Shown: positions 18,230 to 41,774 of the stretch, in pieces
Layout of the letters: each line of letters begins with the position of its first letter
Numbering within the stretch: position 1 is the first letter of the stretch
NCBI GenBank assembly: GCA_016795065.1
Contig: JAEUIU010000002.1
Coordinates: forward strand, 124,001-188,000
Reading direction: 5' to 3'
DNA: 64,000 nt
Source of the DNA: Phycisphaerae bacterium
GTDB lineage: Bacteria; Planctomycetota; Phycisphaerae; Phycisphaerales; SM1A02
Translations under genes and position numbers: made by a program
Notes under the pieces: model-generated
What the model was told of the DNA's origin: nothing
Seen by the model: the letters and a program-made list of their open reading frames with translations, nothing else
Database searches by the model: none

Positions 18230-18238
18230 CCGTGACCC

Positions 18239-19564
18239 ATGATCGTGCCCCTCGGGACAGATCGCGACGGAAGGCGACCGGCACACGCGGTGCGTCTCCT
18301 TATCGCCCTAAACGCCTTTGTTGCATGGGCGATGTACACAGGCGGAGCCCGCTGGATCTGCACGCCCGGCGAGTTACAGGCGGCCAATGAACGGGCCCAG
18401 TTCCTGAGCGACGGCAACACGACGGGCCAGTTCGCGGAACGGCTCGCGTTCACGGCGAAGCTCACCCTCGTCCCCGGCGAATCGCCGTGGTGGACCTGGA
18501 TCACCGCCCTCTTCACGCACGACCCGACGTCGCTCCTTCACCTCCTCGGAAACATGCTCTTTCTTTGGGCATTCGGAAAGTCGATCGAGAGCCATTTGGG
18601 CTTCTGGCGATTCCTGACGCTCTACATCCTCGGAGGTCTCGCCGGCTGGGCGGGCCATTGGATGGTCGACGGCGGTGCGGTGATCGGGGCCAGTGGTGCC
18701 ACTGCATCGGTCGCCTGCCTCTTCGTCGCCTTCTTCCCGCGCAGCCAGTCGCGCATCTTCGTGATGCTGGGCATGATGGTCATGATGGTCCCCAGCGCCT
18801 GGCTCATTGGGGCGTTCTTCGCCATCGACCTGCTGCAGCTGCTTTTCAGCCGAACCGGCGCTGTGTCCACCGACGTCGCCGTCGGCGCCCATCTCGGTGG
18901 CTCGCTCTTCGGTCTCGGGGCGGGGCTTCTGCTTCTTCGTCTTGGGTGGGCACCACGAGGCGAATGGGACATGCTCTACCTCCTCCGCCAATCCTGGCGC
19001 CGTCGGGCGTTGCGCGCCGCTATGCGCGAAGGGACGATGGTGATCGGCAACAAGGGCCCGATCGTCACCCCCTCCACGCAGCCGCCACCGCGCCCCACGC
19101 CCTTCGCGGCCGCGTCGGCTGCCCCCGTCAGTTCCGAGGCCTCAGCGACTCGATCCGCCCATCGAAACAAGGTGCTTGAGGCCCTGAAACGTGAGGACCC
19201 TGACGCGGTCTGCGCCGCGCTGAGGACCATGCTGGCAACGAGTCCCCATGAGTCGCTTCCGCCCGACGCCCAACTCAGCGCCGGCAACTTCGCCCTCCAA
19301 CGCGGCGAGGCCGCCCTTGCGGCCCACACGTACGCCAACTTCCTCGCCCTCTTTCCCGCCGACTCGAAGGCGACCGAAGTTCGCCTGCTGCTCGCATCGC
19401 TCTACTCGCGGCGGTTACAACGCCGCGATGAGGCTCGGGCCTTGTTGACCGGGATCCTCGATCGCCTTCGCGATCCGGATCAACGTTCCCTCGCCGAATC
19501 GCTCATCGCCGAGTGCGCTGCCCCGCAAGCGCCGGCCTCCCTCCGGAAGAACGCCGCCCCGTGA
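18239..19564 (+). CDS. Rhomboid-family intramembrane serine protease with a TPR-like C-terminal domain
   Basis: 441 residues with about six membrane helices in the first 240. Rhomboid hallmarks are present: HLLGN at 101-105 in the second helix region, catalytic Ser152 in GASG, and His208 in VGAHLGG. Rhomboids cleave membrane proteins inside the bilayer. The cytoplasmic half (about 300-430) is helical and repeat-like (LSAGNFALQRGEAALAAHTYANFLALFPAD), resembling tetratricopeptide repeats that could present substrates or partners. The stop overlaps the trpF start as TGATG, so the two are translationally coupled despite unrelated functions. Confidence 0.88.
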   Translation: MIVPLGTDRDGRRPAHAVRLLIALNAFVAWAMYTGGARWICTPGELQAANERAQFLSDGNTTGQFAERLAFTAKLTLVPGESPWWTWITALFTHDPTSLLHLLGNMLFLWAFGKSIESHLGFWRFLTLYILGGLAGWAGHWMVDGGAVIGASGATASVACLFVAFFPRSQSRIFVMLGMMVMMVPSAWLIGAFFAIDLLQLLFSRTGAVSTDVAVGAHLGGSLFGLGAGLLLLRLGWAPRGEWDMLYLLRQSWRRRALRAAMREGTMVIGNKGPIVTPSTQPPPRPTPFAAASAAPVSSEASATRSAHRNKVLEALKREDPDAVCAALRTMLATSPHESLPPDAQLSAGNFALQRGEAALAAHTYANFLALFPADSKATEVRLLLASLYSRRLQRRDEARALLTGILDRLRDPDQRSLAESLIAECAAPQAPASLRKNAAP

Positions 19565-32095: not shown

Positions 32096-32107
32096 CGAAC
32101 TGTTAGG
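32096..32107 (+). repeat. 12-mer CGAACTGTTAGG, copy 3
   Basis: It contains the TAA stop of secDF (minus strand); read antisense to the gene. Confidence 0.65.
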
Positions 32108-35100
32108 GCGTGGCGGCGCTGGAGGAAACCAACGCGGTGGAATGCTCGATGGAGGCCCGACGGCGTTCCTCTTCCTCTTCCCGACGGCTGTAGATCATCG
32201 GGGCGGCGATGATGACCGACGAAATGGTTCCGGCGACCAGGCCGATGAAGAAGGTGTAGGCAAACGGCCGGATGCCCGTTCCGCCCAGAGCGATCAGGAT
32301 GACCGCCGTAGCGAACGTCGAGCCGCCGGTGAGCACCGTTCGGCTAAAGGTCTGGTTGATCGAGTTGTTGACGCACTCGCGAGTTGCGAACGGCAGCTTG
32401 CCCTTGTTCTCGCGAATGCGGTCGAGGATGACGATGGTGTCGTTGATGGCGTAGCCGACGATCGTGAGGAGGGCGGCGACCACGTTCAGGTCGATGCGGA
32501 ACTCCTCGACGAAGAGCGCCTTGCCGAACGACGTGTGGGCAAGCCACGGTGCCGCAGCCAGGAATCCGAGGCAGCACGTCACGTTGAAGACGAGGGCCAC
32601 AACGGCTGCCGAGGAGTAACGGAACGAACCGAACCGAACCCAGATGTAGATCAACATGCCGATGAGGCTGAGAATGACGGCGATGACGGCCGTCGCCGCG
32701 AGGTTCTCGGCGACGATTGGCGAGAAGCTGGCGATCTCGCGCATGCTCTCCGAAGCCTTGAAGGCCGATCGGACGACCAGCCACTCGCTGCGGGCAAGCT
32801 GCTTGTCCCACGCCTCGAACTCGGCGCTCTGCGAGTTCACACCGGGGTCGCTGACCATGACCGCGACGGAGGTGAATCCCTTCGAAGGGTCACTCGGGTC
32901 GGCCGGGGTCAGGCCGACGACGCGCGACCGGCGCCCTGCCGTGTCAGAGAAGTCCGGCTGCGAACGGAGCCGCATGATGCGGTCTTGAAGTTCGGCCGTC
33001 GTGGCTGGCGGGGTGATGCCGTCGACCACCACCGCAACACCGCCTCGGTAGTCGCCAACAGGCTCCTTGATCTCCGGACGGCCGATGGCCGCCCCCAAGA
33101 GGTCCTTCTCGAGTTGATAGGTTCGCTTGGTGTGGTCCAACGCCGCGGTTGCGTCTTCCGGGCGGTCGCTGGAACCGTCGAACGCGAGCGAGAGCCGCGT
33201 GTTCATGTCGCGAGCGAATTCGCCAGCGATGGCCGCCTTGACCTTGGTCGTGATCTCCGACTCGTTCTCGATGGCGATGGGCGGGTTGCCGACGCGAATC
33301 TGGAAACTCGACGACTCGACTGACGAGCCGGACTCGCCAACGGTGAGGACGTTAGCGGCGCGAAGTTCGTTCAGGATCGGATCGTCCTTACCGAGCCGGT
33401 CGCCGATTGCCCGCACCCGCTCTTCCACATCGGCTCGCGTCAACAGGAGGTTCCCCTCCTTGTCGGACTTCTCGCCACTTGCGGCCTTGCGCGTGTCGAG
33501 CGTCATTTGGACGCCGCCGCGGAACTCGGTCTCGAAGATGTCGCGGCCCCGGCTCACAACGAGACCAAGGGCGACGACGCTCACCGCAATGCAGCCTCCC
33601 CACAGGACGGTGCGGATGCGGACCCAGTCGGTCGACGGGGTGAGCATCCGCGTCACCGCCGGGAAGACGGTTGGGAGCATTGGCACCGACCGCATACCCA
33701 GCCAATCCATGCAGACCATGAAGAGCGTTCGGGTCACATAGAGGCTTGCGAAGAGGGCCGTCGCGACGCCAATGAGCATCGTCAGGGCGAAGCCCTTCAC
33801 TTCCGTCGCACCGAACTGGTACAGCACGATGACGACGATGAGGTTGGTGACGTTGCCGTCGATGATGGCAGGCAACGCCCGGCCGTAACCAAGCTGGAGC
33901 GCCGCACGCAGCGATTCGCCGCGATTGACGATTTCCTCCCGCATGCGTTCGTAAATCAGGACGTTGGCGTCGACGGCCATGGCGACCGAGAGGGCGATAC
34001 CTGCAAGGCCCGGCAGCGTGAACGTGCCATCGATGATGGCCATGATGCCGAAGATCATGATCGCGTGAATCGCCAGACCGATGTTGGCGATCATGCCTGC
34101 GAGGAAGTAGTAGGCGAGCATCAGGAGGCCGGTGAAAGCCACCGACATGTAGATCGCCTCAGCTCCGAGGGCGAGGTTCTCCGCACCGATCGACGGTCCG
34201 AGGACGTTCATCGAGATCGGGTCGGGCGAGAGGCTTGCTTCGAGCGAGCCCGCGGTCAGGACGCGAACCAGATATGCGATTTCCGCATCGCTGAACTTGC
34301 CGGAGATCACGCCGGAGTCGCTGATGGCGCTGTTCAGGTTCGGGGCGCTGTAGACCTGGTTGTCCAGAACGATCGCCATCGGCTGTTGGACGTGCGGCGT
34401 GGTGAGGCGGGCCATGCGGGCACCGCCGGTTGGATCAAGTTGGAAGCCGACAGCGGGCGTTCCGAGCCGCTGGTCGACGGTTCGGAAGACCTGTCGAACT
34501 GACCACTTGTCGCCGGTGGCGTGGGTCAGCGCCTTGGCGTCACTGGTGTAGAGCAGAAGGTAGTAGCTACCCGCGTAGCCGGCACCAACGAGATCTCGGC
34601 CAGCGAAATAGCCGATCGGGTCGCGCTGAAGGGCATCGCGTTGGGCGGCCGATTCCGTCCACTGCTTGACGTCGTTGATCTCGTACCAGCGAGCCACGGC
34701 ACTGTCGGTGTTTCGCGGTCCGCGCTTGGCCAACTGCTCGCGCAGGTCGGCGACGTCGACATCGGCGCCGGAAGCCCGCACCGCAATGTGGAACTCGAGA
34801 ACGCCGGCGCCGCGGAGGAGGCGGATGAGATCTTCCGGATCGTCGAGGCCGGTGCGCTTCGCGAAGTAGGCGTCGTGGGCCGCGACCAGGGGCTCGACCT
34901 GCGGAGCGAGGTGCGGGAATTCCACGCGGATCGCGTCCAACTCTCGCTGACGCGGCGCCGGAAGCATGAGCGGCTTCTTCGCCTCGTCGTAGCGCTGCTT
35001 GAGCGTCACCGGATCGATGTCGGGCTGGGGTTGCACCGAGAGGCCGAGGGCCTTGACCACGCGCGTCTCGCTGAGCGTGGCTCCGAGGATCTTCGAACGA

Positions 35101-35669
35101 AGTCTTGACTCGTCGATGTCGGCCTTGACGAAAGCGTCTTCGATCGGTCCCAGTTCGGTTGCCGGCGCTCCGGCTGCCTTCTTCGCGTCCAACTCCGCCT
35201 TGGCGGCGACGCGGGCGTTGTACGCAGTTTGGAGGGCCTTGAGATCGTCCCCACGCGTGCCAGAGGAGCCGAAGCTCTCGGCGGCCTTGCCAGCGACCAG
35301 AGCCTGCTCCAGTTCGGTCGGGCTGACCATCGCCTGGCGCATGAAGTCCGCCAGGAGGTTCTTGTACGCCCGCTGGAGCTCACGTACTTCGGCGCTGGGC
35401 AGCGGCATCACGACCTCGATGCGGTCGAGGCCTTGGGGCTGCATCGCGATATCAAGAACGCCGGTCGGGTTCACCCGGTTCTTGAGGACCTCGATCATCT
35501 GACCGAGGGATTCCTCCGCTCGGGCGGTCGAAGGGATTTTCACCGAGTAGATGAGGCTCACGCCACCTCGAAGGTCCTTGCCGAGGCGGACAGGCTTCTC
35601 AAGGATGGCCCAAACGCAGATCGCGGTGAGAACGGCGATGAGGGCGAGTCGTGCGGTGATGCTCTTCAT
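32103..35669 (-). CDS. secDF: Protein translocase SecD-SecF fusion
   Basis: 1188 residues with about 12 membrane helices in two six-helix blocks. The SecD half starts KSITARLALIAVLTAICVWAI, has a long periplasmic P1 region (about 30-450) and DLRGGVSLIYS near the start. The core carries VAFTGLLMLAYYFLAG and MAVDANVLIYERMREE, the conserved proton-path region. The SecF half begins about residue 680 with EFRGGVQM and ends with YAINDTIVILDRIRENKG and FIGLVAGTISSVIIAAP. SecDF uses the proton gradient to pull proteins through SecYEG. The P1 region is unusually large, with helical charged insertions (about 130-260). It follows tgt and yajC on the same strand, the classic cluster. Confidence 0.96.
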   Translation of the reverse strand: MKSITARLALIAVLTAICVWAILEKPVRLGKDLRGGVSLIYSVKIPSTARAEESLGQMIEVLKNRVNPTGVLDIAMQPQGLDRIEVVMPLPSAEVRELQRAYKNLLADFMRQAMVSPTELEQALVAGKAAESFGSSGTRGDDLKALQTAYNARVAAKAELDAKKAAGAPATELGPIEDAFVKADIDESRLRSKILGATLSETRVVKALGLSVQPQPDIDPVTLKQRYDEAKKPLMLPAPRQRELDAIRVEFPHLAPQVEPLVAAHDAYFAKRTGLDDPEDLIRLLRGAGVLEFHIAVRASGADVDVADLREQLAKRGPRNTDSAVARWYEINDVKQWTESAAQRDALQRDPIGYFAGRDLVGAGYAGSYYLLLYTSDAKALTHATGDKWSVRQVFRTVDQRLGTPAVGFQLDPTGGARMARLTTPHVQQPMAIVLDNQVYSAPNLNSAISDSGVISGKFSDAEIAYLVRVLTAGSLEASLSPDPISMNVLGPSIGAENLALGAEAIYMSVAFTGLLMLAYYFLAGMIANIGLAIHAIMIFGIMAIIDGTFTLPGLAGIALSVAMAVDANVLIYERMREEIVNRGESLRAALQLGYGRALPAIIDGNVTNLIVVIVLYQFGATEVKGFALTMLIGVATALFASLYVTRTLFMVCMDWLGMRSVPMLPTVFPAVTRMLTPSTDWVRIRTVLWGGCIAVSVVALGLVVSRGRDIFETEFRGGVQMTLDTRKAASGEKSDKEGNLLLTRADVEERVRAIGDRLGKDDPILNELRAANVLTVGESGSSVESSSFQIRVGNPPIAIENESEITTKVKAAIAGEFARDMNTRLSLAFDGSSDRPEDATAALDHTKRTYQLEKDLLGAAIGRPEIKEPVGDYRGGVAVVVDGITPPATTAELQDRIMRLRSQPDFSDTAGRRSRVVGLTPADPSDPSKGFTSVAVMVSDPGVNSQSAEFEAWDKQLARSEWLVVRSAFKASESMREIASFSPIVAENLAATAVIAVILSLIGMLIYIWVRFGSFRYSSAAVVALVFNVTCCLGFLAAAPWLAHTSFGKALFVEEFRIDLNVVAALLTIVGYAINDTIVILDRIRENKGKLPFATRECVNNSINQTFSRTVLTGGSTFATAVILIALGGTGIRPFAYTFFIGLVAGTISSVIIAAPMIYSRREEEEERRRASIEHSTALVSSSAATP

Positions 35670-35889: not shown

Positions 35890-36375
35890 CTACCGCTGGG
35901 CCGGAGCCGTCGGGGTTGACGCGTCGGGTGCGGCTTCCTTGACGACGCCTACTACGGAGCTGCGGGCGAAGGTCACGCGCGTGTTGGAGTTCTCGTCGAC
36001 CTTCAACACCACGACGTCGGGCTTCAATTCGACGATCGCCCCGATGATGCCGCCGACTGTTTGCACGCGATCGTTCTTCTTGAGGCTTTCAAGAAGCGAC
36101 TGCTTCCGCTTCGTTTCACGGCGATTGCCGAGGAAGATGAAGAGGATGAAGGCCCCCATCACTGCGAAAAGAAGGATGGACGGGAACGGCGATTGAGCCG
36201 CGCTGGGCCCGGCCCCCGTGCCCGTTGCACCTGTCGCTGCCCCACCCGATGTCGCCGCTCCGCCCGTGGGCGCTGCTCCGGCCGCGGGTGAACCGCTCAG
36301 TGGCGGCGCGGTCTGGGCGAGCGTCTGATTGAGGGAAAAGGTCGCCATCCACGTCAGGTCCGAAGGTGAATCCAT
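35890..36375 (-). CDS. yajC: Preprotein translocase accessory subunit YajC
   Basis: 161 residues from ATG 36375; ATG 36348 is an alternative. An Ala/Gly/Thr-rich head precedes the single membrane helix (ILLFAVMGAFILFIFLGN). The family core RRETKRKQSLLESLKKNDRVQTVGGIIGAIVELKPDVVVLKVDENSNTRV follows. YajC associates with SecDF at the translocon. The N-terminal low-complexity extension of about 60 residues is longer than in most YajC. It is flanked by tgt upstream and secDF downstream, 220 bp away. That gap holds the palindrome CGGTCG-A-CGACCG (35836-35848) and may contain a separate secDF promoter. Confidence 0.92.
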   Translation of the reverse strand: MDSPSDLTWMATFSLNQTLAQTAPPLSGSPAAGAAPTGGAATSGGAATGATGTGAGPSAAQSPFPSILLFAVMGAFILFIFLGNRRETKRKQSLLESLKKNDRVQTVGGIIGAIVELKPDVVVLKVDENSNTRVTFARSSVVGVVKEAAPDASTPTAPAQR

Positions 36376-36569
36376 GTCTGGTCTCAAGGGAACGCCCCTG
36401 GAGGGGGTCGTTCAAGAAAACGTACGGGGACACGTTCGAGGATTCGGCGCGTCGTTCGGGCACGCCGACGACGCCCGTTCCACCGCGCCCATGCTTGCAT
36501 ACGGCATCGACACCCCTCCAGCGCGAACGGTTGCCCGAAGAGACCTTCCCCGGTGGGAGGATCCCTCGG

Positions 36570-37790
36570 TCACTCGGCGCTCAGGACGGGCCAGGCCCGC
36601 AGGAAAGCGGACCACGCATCATCCGTGATCGCGCGGCGAATGTCCAGCATCAGGCGCTGGTAGTGCCGGAGGTTGTGAAGGGAGACCAGAATCGGCCCGA
36701 GCATCTCTTCGGCCATGAAGAGGTGACGGAGGTAGGCCCGCGAAAAACCCCCTTGGCAGGCCACACAATCGCACGTGGGGTCGAGCGGCTCTTGGGAGAG
36801 GGTGTGGCAGGCGTTTCGGAGTCGATGGGGGCCGGTTCGGGTGAAAGCGAAGCCGTTTCGGCCGTTCCGGGTGGGCAGAACGCAGTCGAACATGTCCACC
36901 CCTGCCGCCACGGCCATCACGATGTCGCGTTCGTACCCGACACCCATCAGGTATCGGGGCTTTGAATCGGGCAACCGGGGGGCTGTGAACTCGACCACCC
37001 GCCGGATTTCCTCGGTCCCCTCCCCAACCGCGACCCCTCCGATGGCATAGCCTGGCAGTTCCACCGCACACACGCTTTCCATGCTTCGCTGACGCAGGGC
37101 CAGATCGGTCCCCCCTTGGACGATTCCAAAGAGCGCCTGCCGGTCGGGATGGGCGTGATGTCGGACGCATTCGGAGAGCCACCGGGAGGTCCGATCGAGG
37201 GCCTCAATCACTCGGGCTCGGTACCGCTCCGGATCGGTCGAGGGCCGACGGGTCGCCATGGGACGCGCCGGGCCTGCGTCATCGGCCTTCGCCTCGTCAT
37301 CCTCCGAGGCTCCCCCTGCCGAGCCGCCCGACGGGCTTGGCGGGCAGTCGTCGAAGGCCATGATGATGTCCGCGCCGATCGCGTTCTGGATCGCCATCGA
37401 CTCCTTCGGGCCGAGCCGGACCGAGGAGCCATCGACGAAACTTCGAAAGGTGACGCCGCCCTCGTCGACCTTGTTGATGTCGCTCATCGAGTAGGCCTGA
37501 TAGCCCCCCGAGTCCGTGAGCATCGGACCGTCCCAGCGCATGAAGCGGTGTGAGCCCCCGAGTGCGGTCATGCGCTCGACACCCACGCGTAACAGAAGGT
37601 GATAGGCGTTGTTGAGGATGATCTGGGCGCCGCACTCGCGCACCTGACTCGGCAGGATGCCCTTCATCGCGGCGGCGGTGGCGACCGGCATGAACGCCGG
37701 CGTGTCGAAGCTGCCGTGGAGCGTCGTCACCCGGCCAAGTCGGGCCTGATTGCACGACAAGCGCTTGAGGATGTCAAAGCGAATGGCCAT
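36570..37790 (-). CDS. tgt: tRNA-guanine transglycosylase (queuine/preQ1)
   Basis: 406 residues. It exchanges guanine-34 in GUN anticodons for preQ1 on the way to queuosine. Family hallmarks: an N-terminus ending FMPVATAAAMKG, the catalytic region DSGGYQ, FDCVLPTR with the nucleophile Asp, and the zinc ligands C-D-C-V-A-C with a later His. An acidic/Gly-rich insertion of about 30 residues follows MAFDDCPP (SGGSAGGASEDDEAKADD), likely a surface loop. The start overlaps the rhomboid stop by one base (TGATG), so translation is coupled. queA, the next enzyme, is far away at 62.4 kb. Confidence 0.95.
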   Translation of the reverse strand: MAIRFDILKRLSCNQARLGRVTTLHGSFDTPAFMPVATAAAMKGILPSQVRECGAQIILNNAYHLLLRVGVERMTALGGSHRFMRWDGPMLTDSGGYQAYSMSDINKVDEGGVTFRSFVDGSSVRLGPKESMAIQNAIGADIIMAFDDCPPSPSGGSAGGASEDDEAKADDAGPARPMATRRPSTDPERYRARVIEALDRTSRWLSECVRHHAHPDRQALFGIVQGGTDLALRQRSMESVCAVELPGYAIGGVAVGEGTEEIRRVVEFTAPRLPDSKPRYLMGVGYERDIVMAVAAGVDMFDCVLPTRNGRNGFAFTRTGPHRLRNACHTLSQEPLDPTCDCVACQGGFSRAYLRHLFMAEEMLGPILVSLHNLRHYQRLMLDIRRAITDDAWSAFLRAWPVLSAE

Positions 37791-38932
37791 CAGTCGCGTG
37801 AAGCCTGCCGCAGAATCGCCCGTTCGCGCTCGGTCAGGCTCTGGATGCCGTGCTGCTGGACCTTGTCGAGGATCGCGTCGACTTCCATGCGAACGACCGC
37901 CATCCGCTTCTGCTCGCGACGTGTCCGATTCGTGCGCGACGTCGGATCAACGCGACCGAGGATGTTGAAGAAGTTGTTCAGGACATGCGGCTTGCGGATG
38001 AAGAAGAGTCCCGCCATGGCCCCGCCGAGGTGGGCGGCCTGCCCGCCCGCATTCGAGGTCTGGGCGAAGAGGGCAAAGAGCGCGGTGGCAATCATGATGA
38101 CGGCCAGGGTGCGCAAGCGCATCGGGATGATCCCGAACAGATCGACGACGTCATCCGGCGCCAGGCACGCTCCGGCGATGATCACGCCGTAGACCGAGCC
38201 AGAGGCGCCGATCAGCGGCAGCCAGACGTTGTTGGGAAGAAAGGGCCGTACCCAAGGCGAGTCGCTGGCGACGAGCGCCACGCCGCCGGCATTGAGAACC
38301 ATGTAGACGAGTGCGCCGAAGAACCCGCAGACGAGGTAGAAGGCAAGGAACCTCTTGCGGCCGAGGAAACGCTCAACCTCCAGCCCGAAGAACCAGAGGC
38401 CCATCATGTTGAGGAGAACGTGCAACCAATCCGCGTGGAGGAATTGGTAGCCAAAGAAGCGCCAGAACTGAAAGCCCACCAGCCCCTTGGTCGCTGAAGG
38501 GAACATGAGGGCTTGGGCCGTTGTGAAGTGCAGGTACTTCTGCATCGGCGGGACGAAGAGCACCCGCTCGCTGGCGATCGGAATGGCAGTGTTGCTGCCG
38601 GTCGGTCGGTACAGGAGAACTCGCTCCCCCACCGGCGAGTTTGGGGTGGCGCGAGAGAGCACATCGGCCCGGTCCGACTCGGGAATCCGGTCGTACTCCT
38701 GGAATAGCTCAGGGTTGATGATCGCGTACTCACCCAGCGGCACGTAGGTGTTCGGCCAGCCCCGCTGCAGCACGCGATCCAGGAAGAAGACCGCCACGCA
38801 AATCACGATCAGCCAGGTGGTGACACTCCAGCTTCGGGCGGCGAAGCCGCGTCCTCCTCCAAAGACGGTGCCGGCGTCGCCGTACTCCGGGCGTGGACGG
38901 TTCCGAAGGTAGTCTCGATCCGCAAGTCCCAT
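37790..38932 (-). CDS. Rhomboid-family intramembrane serine protease with a DUF6576-like tail
   Basis: 380 residues. The rhomboid core includes HVLLN (161-165), catalytic Ser244 in GASGSVYG, and His291 in QAAHLGG. A long loop of about 90 residues separates the first helix (about 38-55) from the core. The cytoplasmic C-terminus reads EVDAILDKVQQHGIQSLTERERAILRQASRD. This motif is also present at the end of the adjacent M50 protease and on other bacterial rhomboids (DUF6576-type). It overlaps tgt and lies 72 bp downstream of the M50 gene. Confidence 0.9.
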   Translation of the reverse strand: MGLADRDYLRNRPRPEYGDAGTVFGGGRGFAARSWSVTTWLIVICVAVFFLDRVLQRGWPNTYVPLGEYAIINPELFQEYDRIPESDRADVLSRATPNSPVGERVLLYRPTGSNTAIPIASERVLFVPPMQKYLHFTTAQALMFPSATKGLVGFQFWRFFGYQFLHADWLHVLLNMMGLWFFGLEVERFLGRKRFLAFYLVCGFFGALVYMVLNAGGVALVASDSPWVRPFLPNNVWLPLIGASGSVYGVIIAGACLAPDDVVDLFGIIPMRLRTLAVIMIATALFALFAQTSNAGGQAAHLGGAMAGLFFIRKPHVLNNFFNILGRVDPTSRTNRTRREQKRMAVVRMEVDAILDKVQQHGIQSLTERERAILRQASRD

Positions 38933-39004
38933 GGAGTGGTCACGCTCGGCGAAAGAAGGGAGCGAAGTGTACTCGTCGTTTGAGCGGCCTGTTCGCTCGG
39001 CGTT

Positions 39005-40186
39005 TCACGCCCCCCGGCGGCGGCGATCCGTTTCGCGTTCAAGCACGCGTCGCTCCGCCGCGGTGAGGCTCTGCATGCCCGAGACCCGAATCTTGTCGAG
39101 GATCCGATCGAACTCGGCCGCCTCGCGGGCCTGCACCTCGGCGACCTTCGCCTGCTGGCGTTCCTCGTCCTCGCGTGCCTTGCGTTCCGCCTCGGATTCT
39201 CGATCCGGCGACCATTGCGCCGAGCGGGCGATCTCGCTCCCCTCGCTGTCCTCGTAGCCGAGCGCCTCCTCGGTGAAGCTCAACTGCTGGAGCGTCCGCA
39301 CGCAGGTCACCCCACCAAAGAAAGCGATGGCGACGAGGGACATGTTGGCGACGATCGCTCCAGCCAGCAGGAGTCCGATCGCCCCGACGAAGCCGAGTCG
39401 GCAGGCATACCGCACGGAGCGGGCGTATCCCACCTTGGGCCAGAAGAGGGCTTGGGCGATGCGACCGCCGTCCAGGGGATAGAGCGGGATCAGGTTGAAC
39501 AGAAGGAGCACCAGCGAGAACTGGTGAAATGCGTAGAGGACGAAAAGCCCCGTGTTGTCGCGAAGGGAGAAGGGTGGATCGAAGACGAACGGGTTTGGGA
39601 ATGCAACGCGCATCCACTCGCCAGTGATGATGCCCAATGACGGGATCGTGACGCAGAGGATGAGCACGTTGACCATCGGGCCACCGATGGCCGTGGCCAG
39701 ATGTGCCTTCCAAGCATGAGGCGGGGCGCAATAGGCCAGGCCGCCGAGGGGCCACATGAGAATCTCTTCGGATGCCCCGCCCCACCGTCGACACGTGAGG
39801 GCGTGTCCGAACTCATGGAGAAGGACGATCGAGAAGACCGCCCCGATCCGAATCACCGTGTAGAGGAGCCCCAACCGAACATTCGCCCCGTCGGCGGCGG
39901 GAAGGACTGCCTCCAAAACCTGCCAAGCGATGAGGATCAGGAAGAAGAGGTGGATCCTGATGTCGATGCCAAGCACGCGAAAGAGCGGCAGCGACCAACT
40001 CATCGGACTGTCGAAACTCGGGCGGGTGCGCGACCACGAGCCGGTGAAGCCTTGCCGCAGGGCAGCATCGGGATCGCGATCGCCTTCCCAAGCGGGCTGA
40101 TCGAAGCCGTCGTCGCCGTCACCGCCGTTGCCACGGCTGGAACCGGAACTGTTGTCTCGAGGAGTGCGCCGCACGGGTCCGGACAT
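39005..40186 (-). CDS. Site-2-protease-like M50 zinc metalloprotease
   Basis: 393 residues. A hydrophilic Gly/Asp-rich head of about 60 residues precedes the membrane core. HEFGH at 124-128 provides two zinc ligands and the catalytic Glu; NLIPLYPLDGGRI supplies the third ligand Asp. About six membrane helices. S2P-type proteases cleave membrane-bound anti-sigma factors and signal-peptide remnants. No PDZ or CBS domain is visible. The cytoplasmic tail FDRILDKIRVSGMQSLTAAERRVLERE matches the tail of the downstream rhomboid, suggesting a shared partner. It heads the minus-strand run M50-rhomboid-tgt-yajC-secDF-LysM. Confidence 0.9.
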   Translation of the reverse strand: MSGPVRRTPRDNSSGSSRGNGGDGDDGFDQPAWEGDRDPDAALRQGFTGSWSRTRPSFDSPMSWSLPLFRVLGIDIRIHLFFLILIAWQVLEAVLPAADGANVRLGLLYTVIRIGAVFSIVLLHEFGHALTCRRWGGASEEILMWPLGGLAYCAPPHAWKAHLATAIGGPMVNVLILCVTIPSLGIITGEWMRVAFPNPFVFDPPFSLRDNTGLFVLYAFHQFSLVLLLFNLIPLYPLDGGRIAQALFWPKVGYARSVRYACRLGFVGAIGLLLAGAIVANMSLVAIAFFGGVTCVRTLQQLSFTEEALGYEDSEGSEIARSAQWSPDRESEAERKAREDEERQQAKVAEVQAREAAEFDRILDKIRVSGMQSLTAAERRVLERETDRRRRGA

Positions 40187-40230: not shown

Positions 40231-40836
40231 TCAGACGGTGTTTCGGTGGCCTGTTCGGGCCTGCCAGAGCATGAGAGCGCCCAATGTCTTACCGTCGCGG
40301 ACCTCACCGGAGGCGACGCGCCCGAGGAGTTCCTCAAGCGTACAGGTCTCGACGTCGATCTCCTCGCCTGGTTCCAGACGTCGCTCGACCGGCTGGAGGC
40401 CACTGGCCAGGAAGACGAACATCCGTTCATCGGCGAAACCGGGCGATGTATAGAACATCCCCAACGGCTCCACCCGCGAAGCCCGAAATCCGCACTCCTC
40501 TTCCAGCTCCCGCCCGGCGGCGGCGGCGGGGTCTTCACCCGGCTCGAGCTTGCCGGCACAGAATTCCAGCAGCCGCTCTGCCACGGCGAGGCGTTCGTTG
40601 CGGATCACCACCAGCCGCCCGTCCTCCAGAACCGGAATGACCGTCACCGCGCCGGGATGCCGGACGATGTCGCGGCGGGCGATCCGGCCGGTGCGGTCCA
40701 CGATCTCGCACTGCTCGACCCGAAAGACCGGACCGGTATGGGTGATCGCGATGGAGCGGGTCTGCTGGCCAAACGCCTGGCCGGTCTGGGGACCTGGCGG
40801 GGTGTTGTGGGGCAAATGGGAGGCAGGGCTTGTCAC
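40231..40836 (-). CDS. Nudix hydrolase (ADP-ribose pyrophosphatase-like)
   Basis: 201 residues from GTG 40836; the open frame upstream overlaps the divergent ABC gene. The full Nudix box is present: GKLEPGEDPAAAAGRELEEECGF (G-x5-E-x7-RE-U-x-EE-x-G-U). The Pro-containing approach to the catalytic helix and the downstream PGFADERMFVFLA resemble ADP-ribose/ADP-sugar pyrophosphatases. These hydrolyse ADP-ribose to AMP and ribose-5-phosphate; specificity is inferred. A minus-strand TATCAT at 40872-40867 could be its -10 box, 30 bp before the start. Confidence 0.88.
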   Translation of the reverse strand: MTSPASHLPHNTPPGPQTGQAFGQQTRSIAITHTGPVFRVEQCEIVDRTGRIARRDIVRHPGAVTVIPVLEDGRLVVIRNERLAVAERLLEFCAGKLEPGEDPAAAAGRELEEECGFRASRVEPLGMFYTSPGFADERMFVFLASGLQPVERRLEPGEEIDVETCTLEELLGRVASGEVRDGKTLGALMLWQARTGHRNTV

Positions 40837-40880
40837 GGGCGGCTTGCGGTGAGGATCGCGAGCCCGATGATACGGCCCCC

Positions 40881-41774
40881 GTGAACGAGGTCCCAGCCGA
40901 TCCGACGAATGCTCTCCAACCCGATTCCTCGGGCCAAGGGCACCATTCTCCGGGAAGCGGCCTCGGAGGTCCGTCGCCGGGTGACCCATCCGACGCGGTG
41001 GTCCGGATCGAGGGGCTCGAAAAGCGGTTCGGCTTTCAGCACGTCCTGAAAGGTGTCACTCTGGCATTTCCCCGCGGTAAGACCACCGTGGTCCTGGGGC
41101 CCTCCGGATGCGGCAAGAGCGTGATGCTGAAGCACCTCGTCGGGCTCCTCAAGCCAGACCGAGGCCGCATTTACTTCGAGGATCAACGCATCGACACGCT
41201 CGCCGAGCATCAACTCGGACCGATTCGCCGACGCTTCGGGTTCCTCTTTCAGCAGGGTGCCCTCTTTGACTCGATGTCGGTGGGCGACAACGTTCGGTTT
41301 CCCCTGCGCGAGGCCGGCGTTCCCGACGACGAGTGGTCCATCCAGCGAGTCCGTCACGTGTTGAACATGGTTGGACTCGAGCAGTCGATCGACAAGATGC
41401 CTGCCGAGCTCTCAGGCGGTCAGCAGAAACGCGTCGCTCTTGCTCGGGCGATCGTCCTCGAACCGCAAGTGATTCTCTACGACGAACCGACCACGGGGCT
41501 CGACCCGATTCGCTCGGACGTGATCAACGAACTCATCCTGAAGCTCGCCCGTCAATTGGAGGTCACCAGCATCGTGGTCACCCACGATTTGGCCAGCGCC
41601 TTCAAGGTTGCCGACCGCATGGTCATGCTGCACGAGGGCCACGTGATCCTCGAGGGCCTCCCGGAAGAGTTCCGTAAGGCCACCGATCCTGTGGTACGCC
41701 GATTCCTGCGCGGCGAGGCAAGCGACGAGGAGCTCGCCGCCATCCGCGCGGCGGGCACCCCCCGTCGCTCATAG
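40881..41774 (+). CDS. ABC transporter ATPase, MlaF-like (MCE-associated)
   Basis: 297 residues from GTG 40881, chosen to avoid overlap with the divergent Nudix gene; a start at 40830 is possible. Walker A GPSGCGKS, Q-loop FLFQQGALFDSMSV, signature LSGGQQKRVALARA, Walker B VILYDEPTTGLDP and H-loop VVTHDL are all intact. The FQQGALFDSMSV(G)DNV phrase and the C-terminal PEEFRKATDPVVRRFLRGE are typical of MlaF/Ttg2A, which power phospholipid transport between the membranes. An MCE (MlaD-like) protein is encoded 1.2 kb downstream, but no MlaE-type permease is in the window. Confidence 0.88.
   Translation: MNEVPADPTNALQPDSSGQGHHSPGSGLGGPSPGDPSDAVVRIEGLEKRFGFQHVLKGVTLAFPRGKTTVVLGPSGCGKSVMLKHLVGLLKPDRGRIYFEDQRIDTLAEHQLGPIRRRFGFLFQQGALFDSMSVGDNVRFPLREAGVPDDEWSIQRVRHVLNMVGLEQSIDKMPAELSGGQQKRVALARAIVLEPQVILYDEPTTGLDPIRSDVINELILKLARQLEVTSIVVTHDLASAFKVADRMVMLHEGHVILEGLPEEFRKATDPVVRRFLRGEASDEELAAIRAAGTPRRS

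Follow-up and report, generated by a model that had tools for sequence, protein, structure and literature searches.

DUF6576 tails on rhomboid and M50 proteases of Planctomycetota: a C-terminal module retained through an in-frame exchange of the catalytic body

Two adjacent genes of a Phycisphaerae bacterium, one encoding a rhomboid serine protease and the other an M50 (site-2-type) zinc protease, end in the same short C-terminal tail, the domain DUF6576 (PF20216). They lie in a stretch of 64,000 nucleotides (assembly GCA_016795065.1, contig JAEUIU010000002.1, positions 124,001 to 188,000), which is referred to here as the window. We found that a rhomboid or an M50 protease can occupy the same locus in related genomes, and that in one pair of genomes the catalytic body was exchanged in frame while the start and the tail were retained. 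With a probability of roughly 0.6, we consider DUF6576 to be a cytosolic docking hairpin that plugs interchangeable bodies handling membrane segments into one partner. The genes and elements concerned are the following.

37790..38932, minus strand: rhomboid intramembrane serine protease with DUF6576 tail, 380 amino acids (aa) (PF01694, E 9.6e-29)
38201-38203 and 38030-38032, minus strand: codons of the rhomboid catalytic residues S244 and H301 (alignment columns; codons derived by hand)
37796..37891, minus strand: DUF6576 tail of the rhomboid (PF20216, E 1.9e-9; genome search 8.1e-10)
38903..38932, minus strand: rhomboid N-terminal motif MGLADRDYLR
39005..40186, minus strand: M50 (site-2-type) zinc protease with DUF6576 tail, 393 aa (PF02163, E 1.5e-13)
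39803-39817 and 39470-39472, minus strand: M50 catalytic residues, HEFGH and the codon of D239
39035..39139, minus strand: DUF6576 tail of the M50 protease (PF20216, E 5.2e-9; genome search 2.1e-9)
40231..40989, minus strand: NUDIX hydrolase, a frequent neighbour in the class on the 5' side of the tailed-protease slot (PF00293, synteny)

The C-terminus of the rhomboid reads ILDKVQQHGIQSLTERERAIL... and that of the M50 protease ILDKIRVSGMQSLTAAERRVL... Both belong to DUF6576 by scores of 37.9 bits (rhomboid) and 36.5 bits (M50), above the curated cut-off of 27.3. When the two proteins were compared by BLASTP, significance was confined to the tail (18 of 45 residues identical, E 5e-6; next-best stretch E 4.9), and the sharing is therefore due neither to chance nor to overall homology. 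The common C-terminal motif described in an earlier note on this DNA is thus confirmed by the sequences, the family scores and the BLASTP comparison. The Ser-His dyad of rhomboid family S54 is present in the catalytic columns of the window rhomboid, and H124-E-x-x-H128 and D239 are in place in the M50 protease, H124, E125, H128 and D239 being invariant in nine aligned sequences. As judged from these alignments, both proteases keep intact catalytic residues, and proteolytic activity of the rhomboid is predicted. The genome of the window (4.99 Mb, 89 contigs) holds four rhomboid matches and eight M50-family matches in four open frames; only two proteins match DUF6576 even at E ≤ 10, namely the rhomboid and the M50 protease of the window. 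The tail is therefore not a general feature of many unrelated membrane proteins here, an outcome that by the earlier note would have refuted its reading.

The exchange of the body is visible in the congeneric, single-contig genomes G393 and G419 (loci L078 and L072), whose DNA is 81.8% identical over 5.0 kb upstream and 84.9% and 85.4% identical downstream. The upstream identity extends through the end of the NUDIX gene into ATGAGCTGGGAGCATCGGGA (M-S-W-E-H-R), the first six codons being kept. These are followed by a rhomboid in G393 and by an M50 protease in G419, until high identity restarts at A-S-L-Q-x-E-V-D-R-I-L-E-K-V and runs through the tail, the stop codon and beyond. The two proteins share 76% identity over their last 59 aa and have no other BLASTP match at E ≤ 1e-3; their tails are 95% identical over 43 aa, and the NUDIX proteins 94%. 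A search of G419 with the rhomboid body of G393 gave no match, and the one M50 match of G393 shows 41% identity and is located apart from the single DUF6576 match of that genome. Since flanks, start and tail are preserved while the bodies are unrelated, the catalytic body was exchanged in frame. One of the bodies may have been imported from a relative, or alternative losses in descendants of a tandem ancestor may have produced the two states.

The either-or use of this slot was also seen across the class, for which 91 genomes with a completeness of at least 85% were sampled, 90 of them with a DUF6576 match at E ≤ 0.01. The tail was found on a rhomboid only in 52 genomes, on an M50 protease only in 22, on both in 16 and on neither in one. 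The co-occurrence of the two tailed proteases, which the earlier note had proposed to examine, thus holds for these 16 genomes and not for the 74 with a single kind. All 13 genomes of family f95 have the M50 protease only, and in family f97 seven have the rhomboid, six the M50 protease and none both. In the class sample, 37 of the 69 tailed rhomboids and 28 of the 39 tailed M50 proteases have a NUDIX gene as their immediate upstream neighbour. A quick NUDIX tree of 77 rows, in which 26 of 74 inner branches are weak, requires at least 10 switches in the kind of gene that follows. All fetched loci taken together, 27 tandem rhomboid/M50 pairs were counted, in the order M50-rhomboid in 19 and rhomboid-M50 in eight, besides one rhomboid-rhomboid pair. 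The latter (L049 in G181) has two tandem tailed rhomboids behind the NUDIX gene in place of a rhomboid and an M50 protease.

An N-terminal motif, an addition to what the earlier note had observed, is the second end that the two kinds have in common. By a strict pattern, 96 of 158 sampled tailed rhomboids start with M-x-x-x-D-R-D-Y. Among M50 proteases the motif occurs in 20 of 27 from genomes without a tailed rhomboid versus four of 51 from genomes with both (Fisher p 3e-9, with rows that are not phylogenetically independent), and the window M50 protease, which stands in tandem, is without it. This distribution fits M50 bodies that were inserted into the frame of a rhomboid.

The fetched loci are a chosen, non-exhaustive set, all retrieved via the tail, in which tails and catalytic residues were called by profiles and alignments. 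The 246 tailed frames classed comprise 158 rhomboids, of which 133 have Ser and His, 24 lack them and one is cut; 78 M50 proteases, of which 72 have HExxH and the Asp (gaps in the Asp column were tolerated) and six do not; and ten others, namely six proteins of family f27, one frameshifted M50 protease, one M domain of the signal recognition particle (SRP) and two chance matches. The near-invariant columns D, L, K, G, S, L, T/S, E, K/R and L are identical on 135 rhomboid and 70 M50 tails, although the profile by which tails were found favours such columns. Tail identity is 0.457 between rhomboids and M50 proteases, 0.466 among rhomboids and 0.464 among M50 proteases, as compared with 0.28-0.29 for the bodies within each kind; for this comparison the tails were delimited with a pattern in which L, K, G, L, E/Q/D and L are fixed (225 of 236 matched), so that values of 100% at these positions are imposed. 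Within a genome, rhomboid and M50 tails are no more alike than when partners are shuffled inside their family (p 0.48 for 32 genomes; p 0.09-0.96 in single families), and the idea that neighbouring genes acquired the shared tail by recent gene conversion was therefore rejected. The nearly equal identity across kinds and the lack of partner-specific likeness therefore point to a common constraint rather than to recent copying. A tree of M50 bodies cannot prove a single origin of the tailed M50 proteases because its one real untailed outgroup sits on a long branch, the other rows labelled untailed being a cut copy of the window M50 protease and a frameshifted tailed one.

Tailed members without catalytic residues exist, and the tail is therefore not bound to proteolysis everywhere. 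They were found in 30 genomes, 15 of which also hold an intact tailed protease (G312, G444, G005, G163, G109, G018, G142, G099, G034, G041, G043, G060, G149 and G161, together with G451, where one of two tailed M50 proteases has HExxR). In the other 15, namely eight examined genomes of family f27 and G036, G106, G136, G183, G165, G441 and G204, no intact tailed partner was seen; G441 has only an M50 protease with HExxR, and the second tailed gene of G204 is a frameshifted M50 gene. An obligatory intact partner thus holds in only half of the cases. All eight f27 genomes carry a tailed rhomboid without the dyad, and six have in addition another tailed membrane protein that looks like a very degenerate rhomboid, though only by weak scores of an in-house profile; Pfam searches with two of these proteins gave no rhomboid match.

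L018, L019, L035, L038, L179, L198, L323, L325: dyad-less tailed rhomboids of family f27
L318-L322, L324: second tailed proteins of family f27

A third kind of host was encountered in family f23, where a short open reading frame (ORF) in each of seven sampled genomes consists of an SRP signal-peptide-binding domain (PF02978) and the C-terminal tail. Pfam finds PF02978 and DUF6576 in six of them (G109, G139, G152, G124, G016 and G094), and the seventh, G078, was assigned by similarity only. All seven genomes also have a second, long Ffh-like match, which lies close by on the same strand in three, nearby on the opposite strand in one and on another contig in three. No other short SRP frame in the listed rows of 392 genomes extends to the tail region.

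L349, 3088-3723, minus strand: SRP M domain with tail
L374, 1414-2049, minus strand: SRP M domain with tail
L370, 1462-2232, minus strand: SRP M domain with tail
L361, 967-1611: SRP M domain with tail
L365, 673-1620: SRP M domain with tail
L382, 826-1611: SRP M domain with tail
L390: SRP M domain with tail

AlphaFold2 models, built from 26 sequences for the rhomboid and nine for the M50 protease, predict the same tail fold in both proteins, a long helix that is followed, after a short turn at the conserved glycine, by another one. The helices span residues 331-361 and 368-379 in the rhomboid (confidence, pLDDT, per ten-residue block 58 at 331-340 and then 86-97 for 341-380) and 332-369 and 376-392 in the M50 protease (pLDDT 76 at 331-340, then 85-92, and 65 for the last three residues). 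Foldseek matched the rhomboid model to GlpG (E 3.5e-5) and the M50 model to the site-2 protease of M. jannaschii (3b4r, E 1.3e-9), and a search of solved structures with the tail profile gave no match, the best E being 0.29. A motif FGYDFSxGY(T/S)SL lies between body and tail in five of nine aligned M50 proteases (L214:5751-6794, L258:2333-3472, L280:4456-5856, L301:6843-7922 and L310:616-1869) and is not intact in the window M50 protease.

A constant hairpin that sits on three kinds of host, occurs without catalysis and persists through a body swap is best explained by a docking element. The tail would be a two-helix docking module, probably located in the cytosol as judged from the six-transmembrane folds, the basic linkers and the SRP-domain host. 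Through it, a body that is embedded in the membrane and handles transmembrane or signal segments would be connected to one conserved partner, the body being swapped in evolution and the module retained. Recognition of hydrophobic segments is common to rhomboids, site-2 proteases and SRP M domains. A candidate partner would be found in membrane-protein quality control or biogenesis, such as an AAA+ protease like FtsH, or on the SRP/Sec side. The two proteases of the window would then be brought to this partner in parallel, as alternative cutters. A common function of the tail, for which the earlier note had implied a common partner, is thus supported by the occurrence of either protease with the same tail at the same locus and by the one in-frame swap, the partner itself being what we infer.

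Several points weigh against the docking hairpin. The exchange itself was observed, at base resolution in one pair only, and docking to a common partner is a step beyond it. Four other rhomboid/M50 pairs with a NUDIX identity of 0.65-0.75 decide nothing (tail identity 0.52, compared with 0.56 for pairs of the same kind and a background of 0.46), because the tails of these older pairs are too diverged. The slot is common and not universal, given that, by the criterion used, an upstream NUDIX gene is missing at 32 of the 69 tailed rhomboids and at 11 of the 39 tailed M50 proteases. That the tail outlasts catalysis rests on tail-retrieved proteins only, with no tail-less comparison set, and the calls of live and dead catalytic sites are alignment-based. 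The SRP fusion is restricted to one family, and DUF6576 exceeds the cut-off in two of the six genomes tested with Pfam (G152 and G016). Finally, a role of the tail in oligomerisation or stability would be an alternative to docking.

If the tail were an oligomerisation module, it would form rhomboid-M50 complexes where both proteases occur and homo-oligomers elsewhere. The helical hairpin predicted in both proteins, the 27 tandem gene pairs and the 15 genomes in which a member without catalysis is accompanied by an intact tailed protease agree with this, but most class genomes have a single kind, tails of the same genome show no pair-specific similarity, the SRP M domain is also a host and no intact partner was seen in the other 15 genomes. 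In addition, for the SHOCT domain, which is similar-looking but separate, the test reported in part of PMC3581485 did not support oligomerisation, and we regard this explanation as unlikely. A stability or topology element without a specific partner, for example a C-terminal cap or a turnover signal, would suit a tail that is short, stands at the C-terminus and occurs on members lacking catalytic residues, too. We rate it as improbable in view of the conserved polar columns, the presence on the SRP domain and the fact that in the window's genome two proteins match while three other rhomboids do not.

The earlier note had raised the possibility of sequential cleavage of one substrate, for which the tail would bring the two proteases together. 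The window agrees with this insofar as the genes are adjacent and on one strand and the catalytic residues are intact in both proteins. As an obligatory step carried out by the pair, however, it is not supported, given the 74 of 91 class genomes with one kind only and the tailed proteins that lack catalytic residues, one member being affected in some genomes with both; moreover, rhomboid and M50 protease replace each other at the slot. Sequential cleavage may take place in genomes with both kinds, yet as an explanation of the tail it is very improbable. We assign the lowest likelihood, a slight one, to the view that the sharing is an evolutionary by-product in which the tail coding sequence is merely a homology block for recombination between neighbouring genes. 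The breakpoint of the one fresh swap does fall at the start of the tail, but conservation in the sample is higher for the tail than for the bodies, and at many loci there is just one tailed gene, with no tailed neighbour available for recombination.

Beyond the class, DUF6576 was matched in 364 of 392 Planctomycetota genomes (completeness of at least 80%, many of them fragmented) at E ≤ 0.001, with 358 over the cut-off. Among 14 control genomes, only Bacteroides matches at this threshold; at E ≤ 10, nine match, one of them over the cut-off. A degenerate-pattern scan of named genomes yielded at least 117 loci in Bacteroidota, Verrucomicrobiota, Ignavibacteria, Planctomycetota and a few others, with at least 104 rhomboid and at least eight M50 frames as hosts; all eight M50 proteases listed belong to Planctomycetota by record title. 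The matches listed also include seven frames that are neither rhomboid nor M50 protease, six of them cut by the end of the stretch, and one locus without a tail. Based on the matches listed, the rhomboid is probably the older host of the tail and the M50 protease a planctomycete addition. The seventh of the frames that are neither comes from Kordia (L264:4980-5258) and encodes about 85 aa, with a strong DUF6576 tail (73 bits), a single hydrophobic stretch as judged by eye and no protease. No tail was found in L070, nor in L316 of the named scan, and weak DUF6576 matches in L328 (15.6 bits) and in L068, the latter in a protein that we take to be ChaN-like, were dropped as chance.

On one strand of the window the order of genes is NUDIX, M50 protease, rhomboid, tgt, yajC and secDF, and Pfam matches on the ordered ORFs bear out the arrangement around the proteases given in the earlier note. 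The same arrangement is present at loci L242 and L297; the best-scoring named rhomboid is that of L272 (Phycisphaerae). A link to tgt-yajC-secDF holds within the window's own order, with tgt present at 29 of 31 loci, but not elsewhere: with 5-6 kb examined per side and some loci shortened by contig ends, tgt is absent from all 81 other class loci listed, and these genes are therefore not a general clue. A second rhomboid in the window, at 18236-19561 on the plus strand, has no tail and represents a natural negative control.

36570..37790, minus strand: tgt, queuine tRNA-ribosyltransferase, whose start overlaps the rhomboid stop (PF01702)
35890..36387, minus strand: yajC (PF02699)
32103..35669, minus strand: secDF fusion (PF02355 and PF22599)

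DUF6576 is annotated as a domain of unknown function, and its hosts beyond rhomboids (M50 protease, SRP M domain, small protein) and the body exchange are described here. The open-access literature searched contained no paper for the terms DUF6576 or PF20216, and the titles and beginnings of abstracts listed held nothing on a tail shared by rhomboid and site-2/M50 proteases, including those of Planctomycetes and the Planctomycetes-Verrucomicrobia-Chlamydiae (PVC) group. YqgP of Bacillus subtilis is described in part of PMC7231995 as an FtsH adaptor even when catalytically dead, and thus offers, by analogy only, a rhomboid with a cytosolic extra domain and an adaptor role independent of catalysis. 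In contrast to DUF6576, its extra domain is N-terminal and metal-binding, and B. subtilis has no DUF6576 match at E ≤ 0.001 and only a weak one at E ≤ 10. Derlins and RHBDL4 of endoplasmic-reticulum-associated degradation (ERAD) are likewise (pseudo)rhomboids with a cytosolic element recruiting a soluble machine, the SHP box of Derlin recruiting Cdc48/p97 according to part of PMC12615303. They differ in being eukaryotic and in their motifs. To our knowledge, no metalloprotease alternative to them exists in ERAD. SHOCT (PF09851) is comparable as a short, mostly C-terminal two-helix module on unrelated proteins, as stated in part of PMC3581485; no PF09851 match was listed for 15 tails at E ≤ 10, a search in which the HMMER filters drop most matches above about 0.1 and which included no comparison of profile with profile, and membership in SHOCT was rejected. 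The site-2 protease of M. jannaschii and SpoIVFB resemble the window protease in M50 body and fold, but sequence matches to these structures do not extend into the tail, the best one covering residues 62-290 of 393.

The way in which rhomboids and site-2 proteases of bacteria come to their substrates is a largely open question in the field. The natural exchange of catalytic chemistry behind a constant tail separates targeting from catalysis. We tentatively put forward, as an idea that goes further than the docking hairpin and is less probable than it, that Planctomycetota possess a plug-in system in which the hairpin and the N-terminal motif of the slot define the pathway; the bodies (rhomboid, site-2 protease, dead rhomboid and SRP domain) would then be cartridges feeding transmembrane or signal segments to one cytosolic machine, as a bacterial counterpart of ERAD recruitment. 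The binding partner of the tail becomes a directly testable question, which provides a handle on DUF6576 and on a possible bacterial parallel to Derlin-type recruitment.

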